Assembly: GCF_006538365.1 (NCBI RefSeq)
Contig: NZ_BJKN01000002.1
Span: forward strand, 1,006,411 to 1,070,410
DNA length: 64,000 nucleotides
DNA from: Moorella sp. E308F
GTDB lineage: Bacteria; Bacillota; DSM-521; Neomoorellales; Neomoorellaceae
Reading direction: 5' to 3'
The notes under the pieces are model-generated. The model was not told the DNA's origin and made no database searches. It saw only the letters and a list, made by a program, of their open reading frames with translations. The position numbers and the translations under genes are program-made. Shown here in pieces: positions 945 through 15,321 of this stretch (the stretch's first letter is position 1; every line of letters begins with the position of its first letter).

Positions 945-1178
945 TTACTGTTCTTCAGTTATGCCCCTTCCCTTTAAACCATACATGGTGGTGCTACCGG
1001 TCGAGAAGTAGATCAATTTTTCTTCGTTAACCAGTTCTGTAGCGGCCTTTTTAATGTCCCTCATTTTAGCGTCCGGGATCTTGGCCTGGACGGCCTTTTC
1101 CAGATCCTTGAAATAAAACTTGCTCTTTTTACTGGTCTCGGCATATTCGAGAATGGCCTTTTTGATCTCTTCCATCAT
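945..1178 (-). CDS. dsrD: Dissimilatory sulfite reductase-associated protein DsrD
   Basis: This 77-residue protein matches DsrD in size, charge and position directly after dsrB. DsrD is a small winged-helix protein found with reductive-type dsrAB; it is reported to bind and stimulate DsrAB. Visible features are the N-terminal helix MMEEIKKAILEYAE, the recognition-helix-like stretch DAKMRDIKKAATEL and the wing LIYFSTGSTTMYGL. The start may be either of two adjacent ATG codons behind a GGGGGTTATG-type ribosome site. Its presence favours a reductive rather than a sulfur-oxidising dsr system. It ends the dsrABD operon. Confidence 0.88.
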   Translation of the reverse strand: MMEEIKKAILEYAETSKKSKFYFKDLEKAVQAKIPDAKMRDIKKAATELVNEEKLIYFSTGSTTMYGLKGRGITEEQ

Positions 1179-1208: not shown

Positions 1209-2396
1209 CTACTCGTTAATACCTCCTGCCGCCTTGGATACTTCCCAGGCCGCCCGGGTATATTTAAACTGAGTGCTGGTCCGGTAAGTATCATAGGCCA
1301 GGCGATAATCATCAATCAGATGTTCGGTAAAGGGTAGATCACACTTTTCAAAGAACTTCTCCCAGCCGATCCTTTCCGCCCAGTCGCCAATGCGCTCATA
1401 CTTTCTGGCTTCAGCGGCATAAACTTCAATGATCTTCTTGACGGTGGCCACCACTTCTGGGAAGCGGGGGAAATTGTTGGGCAGCCAGGGGACGATTACT
1501 TTGGAGAACTTGGGTTCGCTGATACGGTTGGATATCTTGCCGCCGGCCAGGACGGCCACGCCATCGCCCAGCTTATCGGCAATGGGCAAAGCGGGGCACA
1601 TGGTATAGCAGTTGCCGCAGAACATGCAGCGTTCTTCTTTAATCTTAATCGTTTTCCTCCCGTCTTCCGTTTTTCCAGGCGACAGGGCTCCCACGGGACA
1701 GGCGGCTATGGCCAGGGGGATTTCGCAGATCGAGTCGATATTATCGTCCACAATGGGCGGTTTGCGATGGATGCCCAGCAGGGCGATATCCGAGCAGTGC
1801 ACAGCCCCGCACATGTTCAAGCAGCAGGCCACAGATATCCTGACGTGGGCCGGTAAAGTCATCCCGGTAAAGTAGTCCATGAGTTCGTCCATGATAGCCT
1901 TGACCATGGAGGAAGCGTCGGTAGCCGGGGTATGGCAGTGAATATAACCCTGGGTATGGACAATATTTGTTACCCCTGCACCCGTACCGCCGATGGGGTA
2001 TTTGTAACTCCCCGTGATATATTTTCGGCTTAAAAGGTCCTTTTTCAATGCCTCTACCTTTTCATAGCTGGTGACCATGAATTCGATGTTATTGCGGGTG
2101 GTGAAACGAACATAGCCGTCACAATATTTATCGGCAATATCGCAGATCTCACGAATATTTTCGGCCGTCATAAAACGGGAGCCACCGCATCTTACGGTAA
2201 AAACCTTGTCTCCGGTTTCGGAAACATGGACCATAATGCCCGGCTCTAAGATGTCATGGTAAAGCCATTTACCATAATTCTTTTGAATGACCGGCGGGAA
2301 AAACTCCCAGAAGTGCCGGGGGCCAATATCGGTAATCCTGTTTTCCGTCGGTTTCTCCGGATTGTATTTACCAAAACGCTCTTGAGATAACGCCAT
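1209..2396 (-). CDS. dsrB: Dissimilatory sulfite reductase beta subunit DsrB
   Basis: DsrB pairs with DsrA in the alpha2beta2 enzyme that reduces sulfite, passing sulfur to DsrC as a trisulfide. The 395 residues contain the DsrB cofactor signature: Cys154 in [10 protein letters not shown], then CCLNMC with Cys191, Cys192 and Cys196. This spacing equals that of the [4Fe-4S]-siroheme ligands of the Desulfovibrio enzyme shifted by three residues. A ferredoxin domain follows (CPVGAL and [12 protein letters not shown], around 250-280). The ATG has a strong AGAAGGAGG ribosome site. It lies 15 bases after dsrA and 30 before dsrD, so the three form one operon. Full length with no missing ligand. Confidence 0.97.
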
Positions 2397-2411: not shown

Positions 2412-3830
2412 CTATCGTTTATGCCGCAGCCGGTAATCTTTGATATCGCGCTTCCATCCGCCGGGCACGTCTTCTTCCTTCCAGAATATATACGGGTTGG
2501 TACGCGGCATTTTAACCATCTGCGGAGCAGCCGGGACGCCGATAACCTCCAGGAACCTGGGCAGCCCTTTACGCTGGATCAGTTCACCCAGACGCTCGCG
2601 GTTCTTGCCTTCTTCAATCCACCAGTCCCAGACCTTCTCGAGCAGCTCTTTAATGTTGTCATAGGGTGGCTCGGCTTTCATAAAAGGAACGGTCAATACC
2701 GCCAACTGGGCGCCCTCCAGGATCGGCGCCTTGGCCCCAAAGAGGACGCTGACGCCCGTGTCGACGCCGGGCCTTAAAGCCCTGGGCATGACATTGATGC
2801 AGTGCATGCAGCGGTTGCATTCCTGGTTATTGATTACCAGCTTGCCGTCCTCCATGGCCATACAGCCGGTCGGACAGAGGTCAATAACTTCCTTCTGGAT
2901 ATCGAACTTTCCCCAGTCGCGACCGCTGTGGGCGCCGCCGTTGGGCTGAATTTCACCCCTGATATAAGCCTGGACTGCTTCCTGGTCGATGCGGATGTTG
3001 TCCCGCCAGGTACCAATCAAGGCCATGTCAGAACGGGCGATGGAAGCCACACAGCCGTTGGGACAGCCATCAATCTTGATCTTGAATTTATATGGGAAAG
3101 CCGGACGGTGCAGCTCATCCTGGTAATGGGTGGTCAGCTCATAGCACAAATTCTGGGTATCGATGCAGGCGAATTCGCAGCGGGCTTTGCCGATACAGCA
3201 GGAAGGCGTGCGCAGATTCGAGCCCGAGCCGCCGAGATCCTGGTCCAGTTCATGAGTCAGGTCGTAAAAGAGGGGTTCTAACTGTTCGGTGGTGGTACCC
3301 AGCAGGATGATGTCACCGGTGGACCCGTGCATATTAAAAATACCGCTGCCGCGGAATTCCCAGAGATCGCAAAGGGCTCGTAAAAAGTCAGTTTTATAAA
3401 ATTTGCTGGCCGGTTGATTGACGCGTAAGGTATGGAAATGGGCGACGGAAGGATATTTTTCGGGAACATCGGAGTAGCGCCCGATAACGCCGCCACCATA
3501 ACCAAAAACGCCTACAATGCCGCCGTGTTTCCAGTGGGTTTCCCCGTCTACAAAAGATAATTCCAATTGACCAAGCAAGTCGTCCACTACGTCCTGGTCA
3601 ATCATCATACGATCTTTAGGGAGTTTCTTGCGGCGCAGGGCTTCCCGTTTAGCGTCGGTGACAAAGCTGGGCCACGGCCCCTTCTCCAGCTCTTCTAACA
3701 TAGGAATGTCATGTTTGATTTTGAAATCCTTAAGCTCTTCTTCCGAGTAGTTATGCAGTTCTTCGTCCGTATAGATGCGTAACTCTTCATATTTCAGTTC
3801 TTTTTGTGGCTGCTTTGGTTTAAAATCCAT
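2412..3830 (-). CDS. dsrA: Dissimilatory sulfite reductase alpha subunit DsrA
   Basis: This is the alpha subunit of the canonical cytoplasmic DsrAB. The 472 residues have the PSCCIGKARCEFAC segment (Cys about 211-222) and CPNGC (Cys 256 and 260) for the coupled Fe-S/tetrapyrrole site, then the inserted ferredoxin domain with CPTGC and CNRCMHCINVMPRAL, the usual DsrA form in which the last ligand comes from the CPTGC half. I start at the ATG at 3830, eight bases after an AAAGGGGG ribosome site; a TTG six bases upstream is too close to that site. It is first in dsrA-dsrB-dsrD, with about 400 bases of leader and one copy of the dispersed element upstream. Confidence 0.96.
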   Translation of the reverse strand: MDFKPKQPQKELKYEELRIYTDEELHNYSEEELKDFKIKHDIPMLEELEKGPWPSFVTDAKREALRRKKLPKDRMMIDQDVVDDLLGQLELSFVDGETHWKHGGIVGVFGYGGGVIGRYSDVPEKYPSVAHFHTLRVNQPASKFYKTDFLRALCDLWEFRGSGIFNMHGSTGDIILLGTTTEQLEPLFYDLTHELDQDLGGSGSNLRTPSCCIGKARCEFACIDTQNLCYELTTHYQDELHRPAFPYKFKIKIDGCPNGCVASIARSDMALIGTWRDNIRIDQEAVQAYIRGEIQPNGGAHSGRDWGKFDIQKEVIDLCPTGCMAMEDGKLVINNQECNRCMHCINVMPRALRPGVDTGVSVLFGAKAPILEGAQLAVLTVPFMKAEPPYDNIKELLEKVWDWWIEEGKNRERLGELIQRKGLPRFLEVIGVPAAPQMVKMPRTNPYIFWKEEDVPGGWKRDIKDYRLRHKR

Positions 3831-4154
3831 TAGCAATACCCCCTTTATTGGTTTGTTTTAATCCGTGCCCGCTGCGGGAGCCAGGTTTTAAGTAGGGACA
3901 ATACTAATTGGCAGGGATCTAACTTCGCCTCCTTCCTGGCAATGCATTTGATAGAACTCGAGGGGGCAAAGTGTTAATTATATCGTTAGCGTTCCCCGGC
4001 CGAGACTGCAAAGAATAGTTAACACAATCCCAAGTCTATTTTTAAAATGCCTTTTTGGGCGTTTTTACACCAGGAAAGGATACTCCTCCCGTCGCACCTT
4101 TGCCCCTTTCTTCGCAAGAATGCTAAACTCCTATCTGGCCGAAGGAACCATTTT

Positions 4155-5610: not shown

Positions 5611-5847
5611 CTATGCTCTAGAACCTTTTTTCCGAATCAGGTAGCTGTAATAATCGTCTCTTATTTCTTTCCTGACAATAGTATGCCCGGCCTGCTGGCA
5701 CCAGGCTGGTAAATCGAATTCCGAGGCCAGATCATCTACCCATACTTCCAGCATGTCCCCGGGTTTAAGTTTTTGCATTTGTTTGGCCGTGGCCATCAAC
5801 GGGCCGGTACAGTTCATACCCCGGCAATCAAGTACTTTCCGGGCCAC
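5611..5847 (-). CDS. TusA/SirA-family sulfur carrier-like protein
   Basis: This 78-residue protein has the TusA fold signature: a first strand VLDCRGMNC, then GPLMATAKQMQKLKPGDMLEVWVDD. In TusA the motif is C-P-x-P; here it is Cys13-Thr-Gly-Pro with an extra Cys8, a variant form. TusA proteins carry persulfide sulfur (or, in YedF-like members, are linked to selenium metabolism). It starts with GTG overlapping the stop of the triple-HTH regulator by one base, so the two are co-translated. Position between dsr genes and selD fits sulfur or selenium trafficking, but the sequence does not decide which. Confidence 0.85.
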   Translation of the reverse strand: MARKVLDCRGMNCTGPLMATAKQMQKLKPGDMLEVWVDDLASEFDLPAWCQQAGHTIVRKEIRDDYYSYLIRKKGSRA

Positions 5848-6749
5848 TAAGACTCTTCCTCCCGTGAGTTGCCCTGCAGGAGCCTGATGAGGTTGAGCAC
5901 AAGATTGCGCTCTTCTTCTGTACTACGGCTCAAAAAGCGACGTATTTCTTGATACTGGTCTTCGGCAGCCGTACTTAAAGGACGCCGGTTTTCGTTCAAT
6001 GAATGTAGGAAATCAAGGAGACCCCGGATCTCCACTTCGCCCCAGTCGGCCAGGGCGCGGACAACTTCCTGGAGAACCGGGCGTCGCAGGGCCTCCCGGA
6101 CGTCGGCCGGCAGGCGATAACCTAGGTATAAATCTTCCTCTTCTTCTTCCATGAGGAAATAGCAGGTTGATACTCCCAGGGCTTCGGCCAGGCTGCTTAA
6201 AGTTGCCAGGGAGGGCTGAATGCGGTCCGTCTCGATCTGGCCGATAAGGCTGTGGGAAATGCCTATCTGCTGGGCCAGTTCCTTCTGGGTCAGGCCCATC
6301 TTTTCCCGCAGGCGCTTTAATTTATTACCCAGGGTATCCTCCTGGCTGGAACGCAAAAGGGAACTGGGTGAAACCTCCAGGACGGCAGCCAGTTTCTCTA
6401 AAGTTTTTAAAGAGGCTGTCGAACGCGAGCGCTCGATCTCGCTGATATGGGCCAGGGAGACGCCGGACCGGCGGCTTAATTCGCTCAAGGTTATCCCTTT
6501 CTGCTCTCGCAGGCGCCTTAGCCTGGCCCCCACGGTATTTTTATCCTTATTCCCATTTTCCTCTGTAAAGTAACTAATATCAACATCGAAAATACCGGCT
6601 ACTTCTGTCAGGGTGGCCATGGAGAGACGCCTGGTCCCCTTTTCTACCTCGGCCATACAGTCCGGGGCAATATCCAGCCGGTCGGCCAACTCTTCCAAGG
6701 ATATGCCCCGCTCTTCCCTTAACTTCTTTAACCTTTCCCCTATCGTCAT
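5847..6749 (-). CDS. Triple XRE/Cro-type helix-turn-helix regulator
   Basis: The 300 residues contain three successive XRE HTH domains, roughly 4-60 (LKKLREERGISLEELADRL), 74-130 (LRRLREQKGITLSELSRRS) and 142-198 (LKRLREKMGLTQKELAQQI), each with the VEKG/IERS/IETD-type recognition segment. An acidic linker follows (EEEEEEDL), then an alpha-helical C-terminal region of about 90 residues with no recognised fold. Three HTH units in one chain suggest binding to a long or repeated operator. The gene overlaps the tusA-like gene by one base and sits between two sulfite reductase gene sets, making it the natural candidate regulator of this island; its ligand is unknown. Confidence 0.85.
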   Translation of the reverse strand: MTIGERLKKLREERGISLEELADRLDIAPDCMAEVEKGTRRLSMATLTEVAGIFDVDISYFTEENGNKDKNTVGARLRRLREQKGITLSELSRRSGVSLAHISEIERSRSTASLKTLEKLAAVLEVSPSSLLRSSQEDTLGNKLKRLREKMGLTQKELAQQIGISHSLIGQIETDRIQPSLATLSSLAEALGVSTCYFLMEEEEEDLYLGYRLPADVREALRRPVLQEVVRALADWGEVEIRGLLDFLHSLNENRRPLSTAAEDQYQEIRRFLSRSTEEERNLVLNLIRLLQGNSREEES

Positions 6750-6799: not shown

Positions 6800-8155
6800 T
6801 TACCTGCTACCTGCTGCCAGGCCTACCAGATTGGCGGCCCACTCGGGGTGGGTGGGAGCATAGAGATGGTTGTATCCGGCCAGGACCCTGTTATAAAGGA
6901 TGCCGTCCACCCGGCCGTCAATACCAAAGCCGCGCTGGACCCGGTAAAGGAAACCCACGGCCTGGCGGTCCAAATTTATTACCCGGGAATGATGGAACTC
7001 ATGACCTTTAATGATGCTGCCCCGGCTAAAGAAGGGATTTTCCCCTTCCACCAGCATTGTTGTGTAGCCATGTCCCTGAGGCCGGGAGGACATGGTAACA
7101 TCAAAGGGTAATGCGCCGCTCATTTCATACCAGCGCCCCTGGTAATTAAGACGCCTGGCCAGGTACATCAGCCCGCCACACTCGGCATACACGGGCATTC
7201 CTTCGGCTATGGCCCTTTTTACTGCCTGGCGCAGAGATACGTTGGCCTCCAGCCGGGCGGCAAAAATTTCGGGAAACCCGCCCCCTATATACAGCCCTTC
7301 AATGCTCGGGAGCTTTTCATCCTCCAGGCTATTTACAGGCACCACTTCCGCGCCGGCCTGCTCCAGGGCCTCCAGGTTTTCCGGATAATAAAAGGTAAAG
7401 GCGCGGTCGCGAAAAATACCCAGGCGTACCCGCCGTAAAGGCGGCTGCTGCCGCTCCGGGCCGGGAGGTAGGTCCGGAACCTGGCTGGCAATGGCCAGTA
7501 GGGCGTCCAGGTCAACGTTTGCAGCTATGGCCGCCCCTGTAGCCGCCAAAGCGGCATGGATGCTCTCGTTTTCTGCGGCCGGTATCAGCCCCAGGTGGCG
7601 GTCAGGAATAACAAAATCCCTTTTTTTAGATAGGGCTCCCAACACGGGTAAGCCGGTATAGTGTTCAATGGAGCGCCGCAACATGTCTTCATGACGGGGG
7701 CGGGCTACCTGGTTTAAAATAACACCCGCTATTTTTACCCGGGGATCAAAATTTTGAAAACCTTGTACCATGGCTGCCGCACTCCTGGTCATGCGGGCGG
7801 CATCGATAACTAAAACAACCGGGCATCTAAGGGTACGGGCAATGGCCGCCGTGCTGTTGCTCCCTTCCAGGTCCAGGCCGTCAAAGAGCCCCATAGCCCC
7901 TTCTATTAACCCCAGGTCGGCCTCCCGGCAGCTGACGCTGAAATGTTGCTCCAGCTTTTCCGGCGGGAGAAAATATAAATCCAGGTTGCGGCAGGGACGG
8001 CCAGCGGCCAGGGTCAGCCAGCTCGGGTCGATGAAATCCGGCCCTTTTTTAAAGGGCTGCACCACCAGACCCCTTTGCCGCAAAGCAACAATTAACCCCA
8101 GGGTAATGGTTGTTTTTCCTGAGCGCCCGTGAGGCGCTGCTATTACCAGGCGCAC
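6800..8155 (-). CDS. dsrN: DsrN-type siroheme amidase (cobyrinate a,c-diamide synthase family)
   Basis: The 451 residues match the CbiA/CobB family: an N-terminal MoCo/dethiobiotin-synthase-type ATPase (APHGRSGKTT at 7-16; GAMGLFDG near 87-93) and a C-terminal class I glutamine amidotransferase domain with nucleophile Cys326 in AECGGLMYL and His in GHEFHHS. CbiA amidates cobyrinate in B12 synthesis; DsrN, a close relative in dsr operons, amidates siroheme to the siroamide found in DsrAB. No other cobalamin gene is adjacent, while sulfite reductase genes lie 18 bases upstream, so DsrN is favoured. A double role as CbiA cannot be excluded. Confidence 0.85.
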   Translation of the reverse strand: MRLVIAAPHGRSGKTTITLGLIVALRQRGLVVQPFKKGPDFIDPSWLTLAAGRPCRNLDLYFLPPEKLEQHFSVSCREADLGLIEGAMGLFDGLDLEGSNSTAAIARTLRCPVVLVIDAARMTRSAAAMVQGFQNFDPRVKIAGVILNQVARPRHEDMLRRSIEHYTGLPVLGALSKKRDFVIPDRHLGLIPAAENESIHAALAATGAAIAANVDLDALLAIASQVPDLPPGPERQQPPLRRVRLGIFRDRAFTFYYPENLEALEQAGAEVVPVNSLEDEKLPSIEGLYIGGGFPEIFAARLEANVSLRQAVKRAIAEGMPVYAECGGLMYLARRLNYQGRWYEMSGALPFDVTMSSRPQGHGYTTMLVEGENPFFSRGSIIKGHEFHHSRVINLDRQAVGFLYRVQRGFGIDGRVDGILYNRVLAGYNHLYAPTHPEWAANLVGLAAGSR

Positions 8156-8172
8156 GCCTCCCTTACCTCCCC

Positions 8173-9246
8173 CTAATAGCGAAAATGCAGGTCGCGGCGG
8201 AAATTTGTTTGGGGGAACCGTTTGTCTCCCAGTTCCTCGACTGCATCGGCGCCAATGGTTTCCAAAAATTTACTCCAACCTATACGTTCTATAAACCCGG
8301 CCAGCCTTTCGCCCGGTTTTCCTGCCCGGCGCCAGTAGTTGATGATGTCCTCAATACGATCAATAATGGCACTATATTCCAGGGGCCGGGCCGGTATCCG
8401 GGAAAAAACGACAGCCGCCATTTCGGGCCCCCTGTAGCCATTGCCGCCATGACCTCCTACAGCAATGGCCACGTAGCTTCTTTTCTTCAAAATAATGCCT
8501 TCTGGGGCCACCTGGACACAGGAAGTGCAACGCACGCAACGATCAGCATCAATGGTTACCAGAGTTCCCTTCTCAGCTTGCCAGGCCCGGATGGCTCCCG
8601 TAGGACACCAGGATATTAGGAGGCCAATGTCGATATTGGCGGCCAGGAAGCGTGCCTCATCAACTTCGGGTACGGATTCATACAGGCCTAAAATACCAAT
8701 ATCGGCTTCCACACCGCCGCCGCACTGGTTGGGACAACCACCAATAGAAATCTTTAAAGGAGCAGGCAGTTCTTGTTGGAAAAAGTCCCGGTAAAAGTGA
8801 TCAGTTATAGCCTTGGCTATACTGGGGGCATCAACGGCGGCATTCTGGCAATGGACAAAGGAGGTACAGCATTTTACCTGGTGCAGGGACTTGCCCGTAC
8901 CTCCTGCTGGGAAGCCGGCGGCTCGCAATTCGGCCAGGAATTTTTCCAGTTTTTCGGGCCTGACACCTACAAACTCAAATCCCTGGCGGCTCGTCCGGCG
9001 GCCGGTTAAAGCATACTCCCGGATCCAGCGCGCCAGCTGCCGCAAGGTGGTAGCGCTTAAGAGACCATTGGGGGGCAACAGGATGCGTACCGTTAACAGG
9101 GCGCTGCCATCTGCCGCCAGGTGACGGATAACGCCTGGTTGTAACATTTCATGCCACACCCAGCTGCCCTGGCGGGCCAGCAACCCGGCGGGTATTTCCC
9201 GGCGGTAGTCGGGCATGATGCCGGCCGGCAGATCAGGTGCGTTCAC
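8173..9246 (-). CDS. Divergent DsrB-like sulfite reductase subunit (second set)
   Basis: This is a paralogue of DsrB (357 residues): an N-terminal sulfite/nitrite reductase ferredoxin-like half, the siroheme/[4Fe-4S] domain, and a ferredoxin insert (CPTGAI, CVRCTSCVQVAPEG). Its ligand pattern differs from DsrB in this window: Cys127-x5-Cys133 and Cys171-x3-Cys175 (GGCPNQC), the classic siroheme-protein form, instead of single Cys154 plus CCxxxC. The HxxNAAVDAPSIAKAI segment aligns with DsrB's [14 protein letters not shown]. It follows the DsrA-like gene by 26 bases and precedes dsrN, so these are one operon. It probably forms a heteromeric sulfite (or related) reductase with the DsrA-like subunit; its substrate is unknown. 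Confidence 0.85.
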   Translation of the reverse strand: MNAPDLPAGIMPDYRREIPAGLLARQGSWVWHEMLQPGVIRHLAADGSALLTVRILLPPNGLLSATTLRQLARWIREYALTGRRTSRQGFEFVGVRPEKLEKFLAELRAAGFPAGGTGKSLHQVKCCTSFVHCQNAAVDAPSIAKAITDHFYRDFFQQELPAPLKISIGGCPNQCGGGVEADIGILGLYESVPEVDEARFLAANIDIGLLISWCPTGAIRAWQAEKGTLVTIDADRCVRCTSCVQVAPEGIILKKRSYVAIAVGGHGGNGYRGPEMAAVVFSRIPARPLEYSAIIDRIEDIINYWRRAGKPGERLAGFIERIGWSKFLETIGADAVEELGDKRFPQTNFRRDLHFRY

Positions 9247-9272
9247 CCCGTCAGCCTCCTTTAGTTCGTAGT

Positions 9273-10397
9273 TTAAAATCCATTTCTTCTGGGACTTAAA
9301 AGGATCTGGGGCTCAGCCTTCAGTCCCAGTTCCTTGATAACCCAGAGGGGACCCACACGGGAGATAAAATCACCTACCCGTTCTTTCTTCCGGGCATTAT
9401 CGGCCCAGAGTTCCAGGAAGGCACCAAAGAGATCGCCAATGGTTGTATAATCGTCATCCTTGATAGGGATAAAGGGCACTAGGACATAACCCACCATAGG
9501 ACCTTGGGGACCCCGGTGACCATACTTACCCCCTGCCACCCAGGCCACACCTCGTTCCCGGCCGGGACGGATGGCCGGGCAGAGGTTGATGCAAACCATA
9601 CAATGCCAGCATTTGTCCGGGTCTATCGCCAGGGTGGAGCCCGTCCATCTCAAGGCTCCCGCCGGGCAGGCCGAAAGTAGCCCGGTCAAGTCACCACCGG
9701 CCTCCTGCCAGGTAGCCAGGACTTCGCTGTTTATTTGCGGCAAATCACGGTACACGCCAATAAAGGAGTGGTCCTTTTGCATCATGGCCCGGATGCAGTC
9801 ATTGGGGCAACCTGCCACTCCACTTTTCACCTTTTGAGGGTAACCAGGGTATTGCTGTTCATCAATAAAACGCTGTCCCAGGTAGGTTGCCAGGGCCGGA
9901 GCATCAACCAGGGCCATATCGCACCTGGCCGGGCCGCAGCAGGCTGTTAAGCAGCGCAGATCATTGCCAGTAGAACCGACATCCAGGCCGGCAGCGTTCA
10001 ATTCCCCGACCATGGGAACCATTTGTTCTCTTGTGGTATAAATTTCAATGGTACCGCCGCTGGTAAAGTGGATAAGGCCTTTACCGTAGGTTTCCGCACA
10101 AGCAGCTAATTTTTCCAAAGTCTCCGCCGATAGCCACCCTCCTGCCGGCTGCAGGATGCGAAGATAGGCCGATTCCTCAATTATATCCGGCCGGCTACTG
10201 TTACGTACCCCTACACCGGAAGGTAATTCCGGTATGTTAATGTACCCGCCATGGCCGAAAGCAGATTCCCCTGTGGCAAGACCGTGTTCATACATGGCCA
10301 GTGGATAGTGACTAGTGCTTAATTCCCGGACATGGCTGGGGGAACACCCGTTTAAAAGCTGGCGGCAAAAGGGAAACTCCTGGCTGACCTCGGGCAA
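9273..10397 (-). CDS. Divergent DsrA-like sulfite reductase subunit (second set)
   Basis: The 374 residues are about 100 shorter than DsrA but share its core: LRCLTACCGPARCDMALVD with Cys154-x5-Cys159, GCPNDC with Cys197 and Cys201, then a ferredoxin domain (CPAGALRW and CWHCMVCINLCPAI). The FTSGGTIEIYTT segment matches the FRGSGIFNMHGSTGD region of DsrA. I accept a TTG start ten bases after AAAGGAG; the gene begins only three bases beyond the stop of the DsrC-like gene. The intact ligand set argues for an active enzyme rather than a decayed copy. I recall second divergent dsrAB copies being reported in Moorella, but have not verified that this is the same one. Confidence 0.85.
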   Translation of the reverse strand: MPEVSQEFPFCRQLLNGCSPSHVRELSTSHYPLAMYEHGLATGESAFGHGGYINIPELPSGVGVRNSSRPDIIEESAYLRILQPAGGWLSAETLEKLAACAETYGKGLIHFTSGGTIEIYTTREQMVPMVGELNAAGLDVGSTGNDLRCLTACCGPARCDMALVDAPALATYLGQRFIDEQQYPGYPQKVKSGVAGCPNDCIRAMMQKDHSFIGVYRDLPQINSEVLATWQEAGGDLTGLLSACPAGALRWTGSTLAIDPDKCWHCMVCINLCPAIRPGRERGVAWVAGGKYGHRGPQGPMVGYVLVPFIPIKDDDYTTIGDLFGAFLELWADNARKKERVGDFISRVGPLWVIKELGLKAEPQILLSPRRNGF

Positions 10398-10400
10398 AAT

Positions 10401-10655
10401 TTAACACTCCTTTGGCATGGGCAGGCCGGTAATCTGGCTGATTTCGCCAATGGGATTACCCGGGAAAAGTTTATAAATCTGCTTTTTATCCAGGCCGCTC
10501 AGTTTAATCAGGTTACGCAAGGTACAGATGGTTCGATGCTGATCATAATACTCATAGCTAATAGCGATCAATTTCCAATGGTCTTCATTTAAAATAATAC
10601 CCCTCTCCCTGGCCCGGGCAGCAATTTCTCTTTTTTTATCGTCTGGCGGCAGCAC
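10401..10655 (-). CDS. DsrC-family protein with only the C-terminal cysteine (CysB replaced by Ser)
   Basis: This 84-residue protein is a short DsrC/TusE relative: LNEDHWKLIAISYEYYDQH corresponds to LTENHWKVVNYLRQYYQQF of DsrC, and KKQIYKLFPGNPIG to LKEIYDLFPSGPAKG. DsrC uses two Cys on its C-terminal arm, 11 residues apart. Here the last residue is Cys84 (CysA), but the position 11 before it is Ser73. Such one-Cys forms (TusE/RspA types) cannot make the intramolecular disulfide of the DsrMK cycle. It starts with GTG behind GGGAGG and is the first gene of the second reductase operon, so it may carry sulfur for that enzyme. Confidence 0.87.
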   Translation of the reverse strand: MLPPDDKKREIAARARERGIILNEDHWKLIAISYEYYDQHRTICTLRNLIKLSGLDKKQIYKLFPGNPIGEISQITGLPMPKEC

Positions 10656-10680
10656 CTTCTACCATCCTCCCCGGATTGAT

Positions 10681-10708
10681 ATAAAGGCCAGCACTGGCGC
10701 GCTGGCCT
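10681..10708 (-). terminator. Terminator or attenuator after dsrC
   Basis: An 8-bp perfect stem (10685-10692 with 10701-10708) followed on the minus strand by TTTATATC. It separates dsrMKC from the second reductase operon; the short T-run suggests incomplete termination. Confidence 0.6.
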
Positions 10709-10726
10709 TCTCTGATTATGCTTGCT

Positions 10727-11044
10727 TTACACGCAACCGGTCGGCTTGGGCAAACCGGCAATCTTACAGGCCCCTTTGGCCGGGCCGCTGGGGAAGAGAT
10801 CGTAGATCTCTTTCAGGCTGAAACCTGTTTCTTTGCAAAGCTTGCGGATCATGGGGGCAATGCCAAACTGCTGGTAATACTGGCGCAGGTAGTTAACTAC
10901 CTTCCAGTGGTTCTCAGTCAGCTCGGTTACCCCTTCGGTTTCGGCCAGGGCTTTGGCTACGGCCTCATTCCACTTGCTGGGATCGGCAATGAAACCGTCC
11001 TCATCAACTTCAATTTCGATGCCACCAACATTAATTGCTGGCAT
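10727..11044 (-). CDS. dsrC: Sulfite reductase sulfur carrier DsrC
   Basis: DsrC is the co-substrate of DsrAB: it leaves the enzyme as a trisulfide, which the membrane complex DsrMK(JOP) reduces. The protein (105 residues from the ATG at 11044, placed after CAGGAGG) has both arm cysteines, Cys93 and the penultimate Cys104, in GACKIAGLPKPTGCV. The earlier Cys in RKLCKETGFS is also typical. It follows dsrK by about 90 bases and is probably transcribed with dsrMK. This copy is fully canonical, in contrast with the one-Cys paralogue next to it. Confidence 0.96.
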   Translation of the reverse strand: MPAINVGGIEIEVDEDGFIADPSKWNEAVAKALAETEGVTELTENHWKVVNYLRQYYQQFGIAPMIRKLCKETGFSLKEIYDLFPSGPAKGACKIAGLPKPTGCV

Positions 11045-11137
11045 GGCCAACACCTCCTGCTAGATTTTATTATACCTGTACCTTTGTATTTAGGCTACAG
11101 GCTAATAACCCCATGTTTGTAAGAAAAACGGCAGGTT

Positions 11138-12514
11138 TTAACGCACCAGGGCGTTGGCGACCAGTTCGCTAACGCCGGCGAAACGTACCGGCAGCTGATA
11201 GTAATTGATGATCTCGCGAAACTGGCCCTTGCAGTTGGAACAGGCCAGGGCGATGATACTGGCCCCTGAAGCCTTTAGCTGCTCGGCCTTGAGCTTGCCG
11301 TAGGTTTCCATACGGAATTTGCGGAAATCACCCTTTTCCATGATAGCAAAACCGCTGCCGCCACCGCAGCAAATACTCATTTCCCTGTTGGGCGTCAGTT
11401 CACGAAAATCCTTGCAGCACGCTTTAAGGATCCGCCGCGGCTCTTCATACATCCCCCCCAGGCGGCCCAGCTTGCAAGAATCATGGTAGGTAACTGGTTC
11501 CGGGTTTTTCTCCGGATCAACCTTAATCCGCCCTTCCCGGATCCATTCATCTTCCAGCTCCAGGATGCTCTTGACCTCAAAGGGCCTTTCCTCTGGAGGA
11601 ATGAGCCTTAACATTAAATACTTCAGCGCTTCAAAGGCATGGCCGCACTCGCCCACCACCAGGGTCTTTATACCCAGTTTCTTTGCTGTTTCTACATGGG
11701 CTTTAACAATTGTAGTAAACTCCGCATCGCTATAGAATACTCCATAATTAACCGCATCGTTAACACCTTTCGCCGGTGAATTTAAGGTCCAGTCAACGCC
11801 GGCGGCATCCATAACCTCAGCCGCACCCATAACCGTCTCGGCAAAGGCCAGATAGTCACCGGCATTATGCATGAGCAGATATTCGGCGCCCTCTTTATCA
11901 ACGGGTATTTTAACTTTATAACCCTTTGTATCCTCAATTTCTTCCTCAAGAAATTCAATCATATCCAAAAAGGCGTTGGCCGGTGTACCGGTGGCATTAC
12001 CGAACTTTATCTGTTTCTGGGTCCCGTTTTTCTTGAGCTCGTCAGGAGCAATATCAATAGCGTCAAAGATCTTTCTGGCCTCCCGGACAATCACGCCGTT
12101 ATCAATGGCTACCGGGCAGACGTAGGCACAGCGCCGGCAAATGGTGCAGCGGTAAACGTTTTCGGCCATGGCATTGAGCTTTTCTTCCGTCAAGTCCTCC
12201 GCTCCTACTAATCCGGGAAAAAGCCTGCCAGGCAGGGTAAAGTAACGCTTGTAGACCTTGCGCAACATATCGGAACGGTAAACCGGATGGTAGATATCTT
12301 TCTTCCCACTGGCCAGATAAACCGGGCAGACCTCGGCGCAGGTGCCACACTTCATGCAGGTATCCAGGGATAAAGTATAGGGCAACCAAAAGGTCCAGTT
12401 ATCCCTTTGTTGGAGGGATTTCTTCATGGCCTGCAGGAATTTTTCTACCCGCGGCTCGTCAGGTCGCAGAGTTTCATCGGAAAGTACCCGGTAGTCGTCA
12501 AAAACTTTACGCAT
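11138..12514 (-). CDS. dsrK: DsrK, heterodisulfide reductase-like Fe-S subunit
   Basis: DsrK is the cytoplasmic catalytic subunit of the membrane DsrMK complex, related to HdrD, and is thought to reduce the DsrC trisulfide/disulfide with menaquinol electrons. The 458 residues have two [4Fe-4S] motifs (CMKCGTCAEVCP at 53-64 and CTICRRCAYVCP near 134-145) and two Cys-rich domains, the second with the CCGGGSGF motif of the special catalytic cluster; the first carries VVGECGHAFEA. Its stop overlaps nothing but it abuts dsrM (start at 12514), and dsrC follows. No dsrJ, dsrO or dsrP is nearby, as in many Gram-positive sulfite reducers. Confidence 0.94.
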   Translation of the reverse strand: MRKVFDDYRVLSDETLRPDEPRVEKFLQAMKKSLQQRDNWTFWLPYTLSLDTCMKCGTCAEVCPVYLASGKKDIYHPVYRSDMLRKVYKRYFTLPGRLFPGLVGAEDLTEEKLNAMAENVYRCTICRRCAYVCPVAIDNGVIVREARKIFDAIDIAPDELKKNGTQKQIKFGNATGTPANAFLDMIEFLEEEIEDTKGYKVKIPVDKEGAEYLLMHNAGDYLAFAETVMGAAEVMDAAGVDWTLNSPAKGVNDAVNYGVFYSDAEFTTIVKAHVETAKKLGIKTLVVGECGHAFEALKYLMLRLIPPEERPFEVKSILELEDEWIREGRIKVDPEKNPEPVTYHDSCKLGRLGGMYEEPRRILKACCKDFRELTPNREMSICCGGGSGFAIMEKGDFRKFRMETYGKLKAEQLKASGASIIALACSNCKGQFREIINYYQLPVRFAGVSELVANALVR

Positions 12515-13176
12515 TATTCCACTTCACCCCACTTAACCTTATGATAGGTAAAATACTTGACGGCAAAGTGAGCCATACGGGTAAAGGGGAGGTAGATCAT
12601 AAAAAGCCACAACAATAATAGAAAGACAAGATAGCTTCCCGGCAAGGGTAAGTGGGGTTTGAAGGTTAATAAGCTGATAAAATAATTCCTGAAAGCAAAA
12701 TCACCTAGTGCACCACTGGCCAGAGCAGCAAGGGCTAGCAGGAAGATAAAAAGCAGGTTCAAGTATTCCACCGGCGTTGATATCTGACGCAGTCCGGGAA
12801 CAAATAACCGGAATAAAAACAACAGGCAGGAACCGGTCAGGGTCAATATACCGCCTGCCACACCAAGATAAATGGCGACTGGCGCCCCCACCAGCAGGAA
12901 AAACAGCCAGAAAACTACTGCGTAAATACCCCAGTGCATCACCAGGGAAGGAAACCACAATTTAAGGTTATGGTGGAAAAGGCTGCGAAGGGTGAAAACC
13001 TCTGCCAAAAGCTCGCTTAGTTGACCCCCGAGGGTATGCGGGTAAGGAAAAAGTTCCCAGTGCAGGTTTACCGGAGCTTTAAGCCAGCAGGTTACTTTAT
13101 AACCCAGGCCAAAAACCAGGGTGGCGACAGCTATATACGGTAAAAAACCTCCGATGAATGATTGCCAGAAATCCAT
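12514..13176 (-). CDS. dsrM: DsrM, NarI-like membrane cytochrome b subunit
   Basis: DsrM anchors DsrK and passes electrons from menaquinol through b hemes. The 220 residues hold about five to six membrane segments, with candidate heme His in LFHHNLK, LVMHWGIYAVVF and FTRMAHFAVKYFTYHK. The domain matches the NarI/nitrate-reductase-gamma family. The ATG follows AAGGAGGGC. Its last base is shared with the first of dsrK, so translation is coupled. A copy of the dispersed element ends about 90 bases upstream, after the terminator of the preceding operon. Confidence 0.92.
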   Translation of the reverse strand: MDFWQSFIGGFLPYIAVATLVFGLGYKVTCWLKAPVNLHWELFPYPHTLGGQLSELLAEVFTLRSLFHHNLKLWFPSLVMHWGIYAVVFWLFFLLVGAPVAIYLGVAGGILTLTGSCLLFLFRLFVPGLRQISTPVEYLNLLFIFLLALAALASGALGDFAFRNYFISLLTFKPHLPLPGSYLVFLLLLWLFMIYLPFTRMAHFAVKYFTYHKVKWGEVE

Positions 13177-13580: not shown

Positions 13581-15038
13581 TTATGCTACGGTCGGGGGAG
13601 TTATACCGTGGAAGAAAAGCCAGGAAATCACGAGACCAATCCAGATAATAAAGCCAAACAGGCAAACAACATACACTACAGCCAGCTTGCCCATACCTTC
13701 TTCCCGCAGTTTCCTGAAATTAGACATTAAGCCGATGGTGAAGAACGTCAGGGCGAAGAAAATACCGCGGAAAGCGTCCGCCTGGCCGACCCCAGCCTTT
13801 AACAGTTTTAACGTATCGCCGCTAGCGCTGGCGCCGATAAGCAGGACGATGATAAAGAGCCCCGCGTAACCCAGGACGAATTTCGGGAACCGCAGCCAGA
13901 TTTCGCCTGCGTTCACCTTTTCGCCTTCACGCCGGTCAATCTTGACAGACCATACAATTGCCAGGATAAAGGCCCAAATGGCAATAAAAATATCGATGAA
14001 GACCTTTACCGTAGTGGTGGTCATCAGCATCCAGCCTTCCTGCCACTTGGTCCCCAGCACGCTAATAGCTTTGCTCCTGATAAGTGCATCCACCATGGCA
14101 CCGCTTGCCGCCGCTGCGCCGTCCGTCTTAACGGCCAGGCCCATCCAGGCGCCGGCTACCATGGGTTCCTTGTAGAGCCAGGCCTGGGCGGCAAAGGGCA
14201 GGATGATGAGCTCAACGACTGCAAAAATAATGACCAGGGAAGAAACAATAATGGGGACTACCGGGCGGGCCTTAATGGCGCCACCGGTGGCAATAGCAGC
14301 GGAAACACCGCAGATGGAAATACCTGATGCCAAGGGGGCGGCCCATTCGGGGGTAAACTTAAAGTATTTCCTGGCGATAAAGTAAACCAAGGGCCAATAA
14401 ATCAGGTAGGCTTCGATGATGGCGCAGAGCCCCCGGAAAACCACCTGGGCTGCCAGCCCGGTTGATTGCAGGGCAGCAAGCCCAATTTTGGCGCCAAGAA
14501 TAACGATCGCCGTTTTAATATACCATTCAGGTTTGGTAGCTTCTTGAAGAAATCTTGTAAATCCCGGGAAGAAGTTGCCAATGATTAACCCAACAATTAG
14601 TGCCACAATAAAACCTGCTTCACCGGTCAATCTTAATGCCCAGCCAATTTTATACTTCTCGAATTGGTCCGGTGTTGCGGCAATGTAAGCATAATGGCCA
14701 ATTATCCAACAAACATACGTAATCCAAAAGATAATGGTGAACCCTGCAATGAAGCGCCTAACATTGCCCCCCATTGCTGAAATGCCGATGCTCAGGACAA
14801 TAGTTAAAAATAGATAAGTAAGAATCAATGAGGCAAAACCGGAAAGACCTTTAGCTGCCACAGGCGTGAGGGCTTTGGAGAAATCTAGCCAGACATTTGT
14901 TTTGACGACCCAACCAAGCACATCGGAGCCAGTTAATTTTAGTAGTCCCAGTAAAAAGATAAACAACCCAAGCCATACTGCCCACCAGTCTTCGCTTTTT
15001 AAAAGTGGGGAGCGCGCCCCTTTAGCCTCTTGAGACAT
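13581..15038 (-). CDS. YeiH-family (UPF0324) putative sulfate/sulfite exporter, long form
   Basis: A polytopic membrane protein of the YeiH/UPF0324 family, annotated elsewhere as putative sulfate exporters. Family features are the glycine-rich helix pairs LIIGNFFPGF, AIVILGAKIGL, GISICGVSAAIATGGAIKA and the TIGLMSNFRKL end. At 485 residues it is well longer than the usual 330-350: about 110 extra residues at the N-terminus add membrane helices. I start at the ATG at 15038 after GGGGGGAAT; a 17-residue longer frame has no ribosome site. Position between rex and dsrMKC suggests export or exchange of sulfur oxyanions, but the substrate is inferred. Confidence 0.85.
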   Translation of the reverse strand: MSQEAKGARSPLLKSEDWWAVWLGLFIFLLGLLKLTGSDVLGWVVKTNVWLDFSKALTPVAAKGLSGFASLILTYLFLTIVLSIGISAMGGNVRRFIAGFTIIFWITYVCWIIGHYAYIAATPDQFEKYKIGWALRLTGEAGFIVALIVGLIIGNFFPGFTRFLQEATKPEWYIKTAIVILGAKIGLAALQSTGLAAQVVFRGLCAIIEAYLIYWPLVYFIARKYFKFTPEWAAPLASGISICGVSAAIATGGAIKARPVVPIIVSSLVIIFAVVELIILPFAAQAWLYKEPMVAGAWMGLAVKTDGAAAASGAMVDALIRSKAISVLGTKWQEGWMLMTTTTVKVFIDIFIAIWAFILAIVWSVKIDRREGEKVNAGEIWLRFPKFVLGYAGLFIIVLLIGASASGDTLKLLKAGVGQADAFRGIFFALTFFTIGLMSNFRKLREEGMGKLAVVYVVCLFGFIIWIGLVISWLFFHGITPPTVA

Positions 15039-15321
15039 CTTATTCCCCCCTAAAAAATTGTTTTCTTTAATCTGTTTGCAATAATCCACCCCTTGCTTTC
15101 CTTAGCTCCTTATGTATCACCTCCTAGCGCTCATTCTCACCTTCACTTATTCTTGCTTTCACCCCCCTCCACGCGTTAACAAGACCATCTTTAAAAGAGA
15201 AAACAATACCTCTTGTGTTATAAATTATATTTATCTATTGCAAAGTAATATACTAAAACTTAACACCTACAATAGTCTTATTATGTAGATCATCCTTGTT
15301 CTAACATTCTCTTTATCATTA

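Follow-up and report, generated by a model that had tools for sequence, protein, structure and literature searches.

What kind of siroheme reductase is encoded by a second, divergent set of dsr genes, and with which DsrC-type protein would it work? This question is raised by Moorella sp. E308F, whose 3.06-Mb genome contains, on contig 2, a 64,000-nucleotide stretch (NZ_BJKN01000002.1, positions 1,006,411 to 1,070,410; hereafter the window) encoding both a canonical DsrA1B1 pair and a divergent module, dsrM-K-C1-C2-A2-B2-N-XRE, in which dsrC2, dsrA2 and dsrB2 lie beside a dsrN-like gene. A first-pass annotation, made from the sequence alone, had picked out these DsrC/A/B genes next to dsrN as a second, divergent module, and coordinates, gene spacing, families and tree all bear this out. 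We find that DsrA2 and DsrB2 are two paralogous subunits at the base of the DsrA and DsrB clades. With a probability of roughly 0.6, we propose that the module specifies a catalytically competent DsrAB-type sulfite reductase with siroheme-[4Fe-4S] cofactors, for which DsrC2, retaining only the first (CysA) of the two cysteines of canonical DsrC, would be a dedicated partner beside the canonical DsrC1.

DsrA2 and DsrB2 branch at the base of the DsrAB family

The top family match of DsrB2 was dsrB TIGR02066 (6e-74; 249 bits against a curated cut-off of 341.5), and that of DsrA2 was dsrA TIGR02064 (2.5e-71; 241 bits against 392.9). Because both scores fall below the curated cut-offs, the two proteins are divergent, each a basal sister rather than a canonical member. 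A maximum-likelihood tree of 54 rows (LG+C20, 1000 ultrafast bootstraps) resolved four clades, A1, A2, B1 and B2, each with support of 100/99 or better, in which A2 was sister to A1 (100/98) and B2 to B1 (98/91), with long A2 and B2 branches. This tree included AsrC-like rows, and a quick tree additionally contained AsrC and one NirB-like protein, all from the same order; in both trees the AsrC-like and NirB-like rows fell outside the DsrA and DsrB clades. This placement, which the first-pass annotation had singled out as the check to run, rules out an AsrC or nitrite reductase identity for DsrA2 and DsrB2. AsrC resembles them in combining siroheme and [4Fe-4S] with a ferredoxin domain, but DsrA2 and DsrB2 group with DsrA and DsrB. 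The basal order relative to archaeal, Rokubacterial and oxidative-type DsrAB and to Dsr-LP, which lie outside our trees, is taken from PMC10504309 and PMC7174415. Foldseek matches of the DsrB2 AlphaFold model to DsrB chains (E 1e-27; template modelling score, TM, about 0.55) confirmed the family, not the geometry.

The enzyme pair itself is on record. PMC10504309 and PMC7174415 describe a second, early-branching Moorella DsrAB copy, of which the DsrA2B2 of the window is the orthologue and not a new enzyme: both belong to the same genus, have dsrC and dsrN in their neighbourhood and take a basal position in the DsrA and DsrB trees. The arrangement differs, as the two DsrAB copies of M. thermoacetica have been assigned to different regions, whereas dsrA2B2 here lies about 4 kb from dsrA1B1. 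The authors of PMC10504309 state that, to their knowledge, the Moorella Dsr system had not been studied before, and according to PMC7174415 neither copy has a clear function. The first-pass annotation had overlooked this record, together with the cysteine missing from DsrC2 and the dsrMK genes just upstream.

The genome also encodes other siroheme reductases: an AsrC (L122, 435 bits), an AsrC-like protein of 294 amino acids below the cut-off, a NirB-like protein of 309 amino acids and a NIR_SIR protein of 236 amino acids without an NCBIfam family match at the threshold used (the extra loci in G000 are labelled L122, L124, L121 and L123).

A dissimilatory-type pocket is paired with an assimilatory-type cluster motif

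Both large subunits carry a complete Cys-x5-Cys and Cys-x3-Cys ligand set (C153-x5-C159 and C197-x3-C201 in DsrA2; C127-x5-C133 and C171-x3-C175 in DsrB2), whereas the canonical DsrB of the window has a single Cys plus CCLNMC, as the first-pass annotation had correctly read. Across our alignment, CX5C..CX3C occurred in 16/16 DsrB2 proteins (window copy included) and in 0/39 canonical DsrB, which had C..CCX3C in 39/39. The cluster motifs were invariant in all DsrA2 and DsrB2 orthologues, which, with the low substitution ratios given below, argues that the ligand pattern reflects more than chance. As far as the literature searched extends, this contrast between DsrB2 and canonical DsrB is new; the accessible text of PMC10504309 and PMC7174415 mentions neither the DsrB2 motif nor the single-cysteine DsrC2.

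In DsrAB, the catalytic siroheme sits at the DsrB cluster with its C..CCX3C motif, the DsrA centre being structural, and the four basic residues that bind sulfite are perfectly conserved across sulfite reductases (PMC10229431). Assimilatory enzymes and Fsr share two traits, the CX5C..CX3C motif and an Arg where DsrA has Thr133/136 (PMC10229431). By alignment, the four basic residues correspond to R80, R148, K189 and K191 of DsrA2, invariant in 11/11 sequences. At the assimilatory Arg position (the column of DsrB2 R87), DsrA2 has Ser in five sequences, Thr in four, Asn in one and Ala in one, and the outgroup AsrC-type rows have Arg in four. Since activity depends on a basic pocket facing the siroheme and DsrA2 keeps all four residues, the site formed by the DsrA2 pocket and the DsrB2 cluster should be functional. 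With a dissimilatory pocket on DsrA2 and an assimilatory/Fsr-type cluster on DsrB2, the predicted catalytic centre would thus be a mosaic.

DsrA2B2 shares with the canonical reductive enzymes of A. fulgidus (3mm5) and D. vulgaris (2v4j) the two-subunit fold and the inserted ferredoxin domains, and DsrA2 shares with them the four basic catalytic residues and the absence of Arg at the assimilatory position. It differs from canonical DsrAB in the ligand set of DsrB2, which is only about 30% identical to the DsrB1 of the window, in its shorter chains and in having no adjacent DsrD.

DsrC2 retains CysA in a dsrAB operon

DsrC2 matched the Pfam DsrC family (2.7e-15; NCBIfam 44.2 against a cut-off of 53.5), and its AlphaFold model has the DsrC fold (mean predicted local distance difference test, pLDDT, 88.1; TM 0.68-0.76 to eight DsrC-family structures). 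In a gap-free alignment of the C-terminal arm, CysA was present as the final residue in 15/15 DsrC2 proteins, and Ser occupied the CysB position in all but one of them (14/15), the exception, L101, having Cys, whereas 27/27 DsrC1 proteins had both cysteines. A further cysteine, Cys44, was found in 15/15 DsrC2 and 0/27 DsrC1, and is unique to the DsrC2 group in the set compared. The sole DsrC2 with Cys at the CysB position, L101 9355-8975 (G094), ends in ..LICQLTGLPKPEEC; the loss of CysB is therefore not absolute in the family.

Replacement of CysB by Ser would preclude a CysA-CysB disulfide or trisulfide, with sulfur carriage on CysA still possible. An earlier survey found CysB only in organisms with DsrAB, the TusE-type proteins of organisms without DsrAB almost always having Ala, Ser or Thr at this position (PMC3397948). 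A DsrC without CysB inside a dsrAB operon runs counter to that rule, and within the literature searched the DsrC2 partnership is new. DsrC2 resembles TusE and other single-cysteine DsrC proteins in its fold, the retained CysA and the change of CysB to Ser; it differs from TusE in being encoded within the dsrAB operon, in its strict co-occurrence with DsrA2 and in having Cys44.

The module is linked and under purifying selection

We then considered the distribution of the module across the phylum, sampled here with 398 genomes. DsrA2 and DsrC2 co-occurred in an identical set of 13/398 genomes and nowhere else in the sample, with clear score gaps (DsrA2 at least 424 bits, next best 220; DsrC2 at least 74.6, next best 49.9). 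These 13 genomes are not independent, as eleven come from one order and two (G053 and G094) from another family. In the latter two the gene order differs (A2-B2-N-XRE ... C2 ... A1-B1-C1), so that linkage of A2-B2-N-XRE-C2 persists in a second lineage despite the rearrangement; a family-mate, G129, has DsrA1 and neither DsrA2 nor DsrC2. The dsrMK-dsrC1 adjacency holds across most of the order. The gene block was also found in M. mulderi, M. stamsii, M. sulfitireducens and Thermanaeromonas, and DsrB2 orthologues in eight other members of the genus were 69-89% identical. A contig scan with the DsrA2 alignment, which relied on two short peptide patterns and was not exhaustive, returned six loci, all from Moorella, Thermanaeromonas or a Clostridia metagenome-assembled genome. 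A TAG codon in the DsrA2 of G018 raised the possibility of recoding, which we rejected, as this TAG is just a stop codon that falls roughly four codons short of where the match ends.

Ratios of nonsynonymous to synonymous substitution (dN/dS) were 0.07-0.14 for DsrA2 and DsrB2, 0.04-0.14 for DsrC2 and 0.01-0.05 for DsrA1 and DsrB1 (some dS values near saturation). DsrA2, DsrB2 and DsrC2 are thus under strong purifying selection. Within the order, DsrD was confined to Moorella and G014, beside DsrB1, indicating that the module is independent of DsrD. No AprA over the cut-off was found in the order, and this genome accordingly gives no indication that sulfate is reduced through AprAB.

We also rejected the idea that the module came from a plasmid or a virus, because no close relatives appeared in any of the collections searched. 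Plasmids gave only AsrC- and NirB-like matches under 60% identity, IMG/VR gave no close relatives of the module proteins, and the phage search, which included DsrC2, returned nothing beyond Lau218 DsrA, at 24%, and a single short record without annotation. Separately, two short INPHARED records, OR851037 and OR851376 (Salmonella phage S.Kent 1-2-1), contain TusE/DsrC-like and siroheme-reductase-like DNA, which is probably bacterial host contamination.

A predicted sulfite reductase and its alternatives

In the mechanism we propose, sulfite would bind at the siroheme of the DsrB2 cluster and face the four basic residues of DsrA2, and the inserted ferredoxin domains would be the entry point for electrons. 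The enzyme would run in the reductive direction. DsrN would amidate the siroheme. Reduced sulfur would pass from the DsrA2/DsrB2 interface to a DsrC-type carrier: DsrC1, with its two cysteines, would form the trisulfide and be recycled by the adjacent DsrMK, and DsrC2 would serve as a dedicated extra partner acting through CysA alone, either as a persulfide carrier or as a gate, in a TusE-like manner. Cys44 of DsrC2 may perhaps act as an alternative resolving thiol. Both DsrAB copies were detected in the M. thermoacetica proteome, according to PMC10504309, and M. sulfitireducens, which carries the module plus a canonical DsrAB, grows with H2 and sulfite (PMC11328732).

Several observations weigh against this reading. 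Canonical DsrAB is also present in 15/16 module genomes, the exception (G004) being an 84% draft, and growth on sulfite is therefore not creditable to the second copy. Some Moorella, M. carbonis among them, use neither sulfite nor thiosulfate (PMC11328732), and PMC7174415 describes Moorella species as not reducing sulfite. In DsrA1 the KxKxK run has its third Lys in 18/18 sequences; DsrA2 is without this residue, a further departure from canonical DsrAB. The DsrB2 AlphaFold model, a single chain without heterodimer partner or cofactor, reached only a moderate mean pLDDT of 69.5. Genes, motifs, tree position, purifying selection, synteny and co-occurrence are observed; substrate, direction, electron delivery and the transfer of sulfur to DsrC1 and DsrC2 are predicted.

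The alternative that survives best, though we regard it as rather unlikely, is a six-electron enzyme resembling assimilatory sulfite reductase (aSir) or Fsr, which would release sulfide directly for sulfite detoxification or assimilation, DsrC2 being a structural or regulatory subunit and no sulfur acceptor. The CX5C..CX3C motif of DsrB2, shared with Group I Fsr and assimilatory sulfite reductases at the predicted catalytic site, is one of the two traits of these enzymes (PMC10229431), and a DsrC2 without CysB could not complete the DsrC trisulfide cycle. The second trait, however, is absent, with Ser, Thr, Asn or Ala in DsrA2 in place of Arg; and dsrMK, dsrC1 and dsrN, parts of a dissimilatory chain, stand in the same gene run. 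Unlike Group I Fsr and the assimilatory enzymes, DsrA2B2 is a DsrA/DsrB heterodimer by its tree placement and has no F420H2-oxidase domain.

That the substrate is another oxyanion or sulfur species, such as thiosulfate, trithionate or nitrite, or that the enzyme runs oxidatively, appears unlikely. Early-branching DsrAB copies are without a tested substrate, and Moorella use thiosulfate, nitrate or dimethyl sulfoxide more commonly than sulfite (PMC11328732; PMC7174415). Against this, DsrA2 retains each of the four residues that contact sulfite, whereas Group II Fsr, thought to have changed substrate, altered two of them (PMC10229431), and the lack of AprA over the cut-off in the genome makes oxidation to sulfate via AprAB unlikely.

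The first-pass annotation had gone further and proposed, from the complete ligand sets, that both siroheme centres may work. The motif does occur in both subunits, and the mirror pocket of DsrB2 keeps R54, R87 and K165; it is also less degenerate than that of canonical DsrB at position 122, where His replaces the mostly Ser or Thr residues, and it has Gly for the Trp of A. fulgidus DsrB. The pocket nevertheless remains incomplete, since His122 stands for Arg and a variable residue (163) for Lys, both of which belong to the active pocket of every DsrA; Gly likewise replaces the Trp in 17/18 ordinary DsrB. Nor is a full ligand set diagnostic of activity, as ordinary DsrA has one and is inactive, and ordinary DsrB also has four ligands (C plus CCX3C). 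The inference was therefore weak, and a second working site, formed by the DsrA2 cluster and the DsrB2 pocket, is possible but not indicated by the residues; we consider two catalytic centres improbable.

That the module is a degenerate relic without enzymatic function, or serves to sense sulfite, is very improbable: protein-level evolution about two to ten times faster than in DsrA1B1 and the constant presence of canonical DsrAB in near-complete genomes would fit it, but dN/dS of 0.07-0.14, the invariance of ligand and catalytic residues in every genus sampled, and detection of the protein in the M. thermoacetica proteome (PMC10504309) all speak against it.

Locus layout, hairpin and neighbouring genes

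The genes from dsrM-like to dsrN are transcribed from the minus strand (6800-13176) in the order dsrM-like, dsrK-like, dsrC1, hairpin, dsrC2, dsrA2, dsrB2 and dsrN, and are followed 3' of dsrN by the XRE regulator, selD, dsrA1, dsrB1 and dsrD (Table 1). Only 3, 26 and 17 bases separate dsrC2 from dsrA2, dsrA2 from dsrB2 and dsrB2 from dsrN, respectively.

Table 1 Features of the Dsr locus, in window coordinates
Feature	Position	Strand	Description
dsrC2	10401..10655	-	DsrC/TusE family, 84 amino acids, GTG start; C84 (CysA) is the very last residue; Ser in place of CysB; additional Cys44, invariant
dsrA2	9273..10397	-	Divergent early-branching DsrA, 374 amino acids, TTG start; R80, R148, K189, K191; C153, C159, C197, C201; ferredoxin domain
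dsrB2	8173..9246	-	Divergent early-branching DsrB, 357 amino acids, GTG start; C127, C133, C171, C175; ferredoxin domain with C214, C237, C240, C243
dsrN-like	6800..8155	-	Amidase, CobB/CbiA family; from family search, paralogy and PMC10504309
dsrC1	10727..11053	-	Canonical two-cysteine DsrC (C96, C107)
Hairpin	10686..10707	-	Between dsrC1 and dsrC2; conserved; T-tail weak; may act as an attenuator or processing stem
dsrK-like	11138..12514	-	CCG domain, 332 bits (DsrK cut-off 400); likely reductase for oxidised DsrC; from synteny
dsrM-like	12514..13176	-	Haem-b membrane subunit, NarI family, 220 amino acids; from synteny
XRE regulator	5847..6749	-	Three HTH_3 domains; kept beside dsrN in module-bearing lineages
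dsrA1	2412..3836	-	Canonical DsrA, comparison copy
dsrB1	1209..2396	-	Canonical DsrB, C..CCX3C, comparison copy
dsrD	966..1166	-	Adjoins dsrB1, not the second module

The first-pass annotation had placed an operon head after a terminator in front of dsrC2. A conserved hairpin is indeed present: it recurs in Moorella, where G016 and G017 show a compensatory change from C-G to T-A that affects both stem sides; none of 200 shuffled sequences was as stable (z = -4.0); and it is unique in the window. However, the terminator scan did not call it, its T-tail is weak, and no promoter-like site was found between it and dsrC2. Given the weak T-tail and the lack of a promoter-like site, the hairpin resembles a full operon boundary less than it does an attenuator or processing stem, which would set DsrC1 levels above the rest and may so tune dsrC1 against dsrC2-A2-B2. 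Because dsrC1 and dsrMK lie upstream in the same direction, a separate operon head is not shown.

The family match and paralogy of dsrN were confirmed, with CobB as its NCBIfam label. A second full paralogue elsewhere in the genome adjoins a CobQ-like gene, so the window copy is the likely siroheme amidase; its gene context and PMC10504309 likewise favour DsrN. The XRE regulator, which follows dsrN even in the rearranged G053 and G094, is likely the regulator of the module. Upstream of dsrMK, and beside the module in most Moorellales, lies a gene for a PF03601 membrane protein (YeiH-like; 13581-15089, minus strand). Its family is commonly annotated as putative sulfate exporters, and the protein may move sulfite or another sulfur oxyanion.

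Implications for the DsrAB family

The DsrAB pair was already on record, and we report no new enzyme class; what is new, within the literature searched, is the partnership with DsrC2 and the mosaic of cluster and pocket. A more speculative extension, possible but doubtful, is that DsrA2B2 and DsrC2 represent a distinct Dsr mode, in which a mosaic enzyme would deliver sulfur to a carrier unable to form the CysA-CysB trisulfide, and which would be a living intermediate between an ancestral sulfite reductase and the DsrC-trisulfide pathway.

The second Moorella DsrAB has been used to root DsrAB trees, and its active-site make-up goes undiscussed in the accessible portions of PMC10504309 and PMC7174415. 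The basal DsrB of these rooted trees carries the assimilatory/Fsr-type ligand set, the pattern predicted if canonical CCX3C is the derived form. The locus frames testable questions for the family: which of the two sites is active, which of DsrC1 and DsrC2 receives the product, and whether a DsrAB can be served by a DsrC that lacks CysB.

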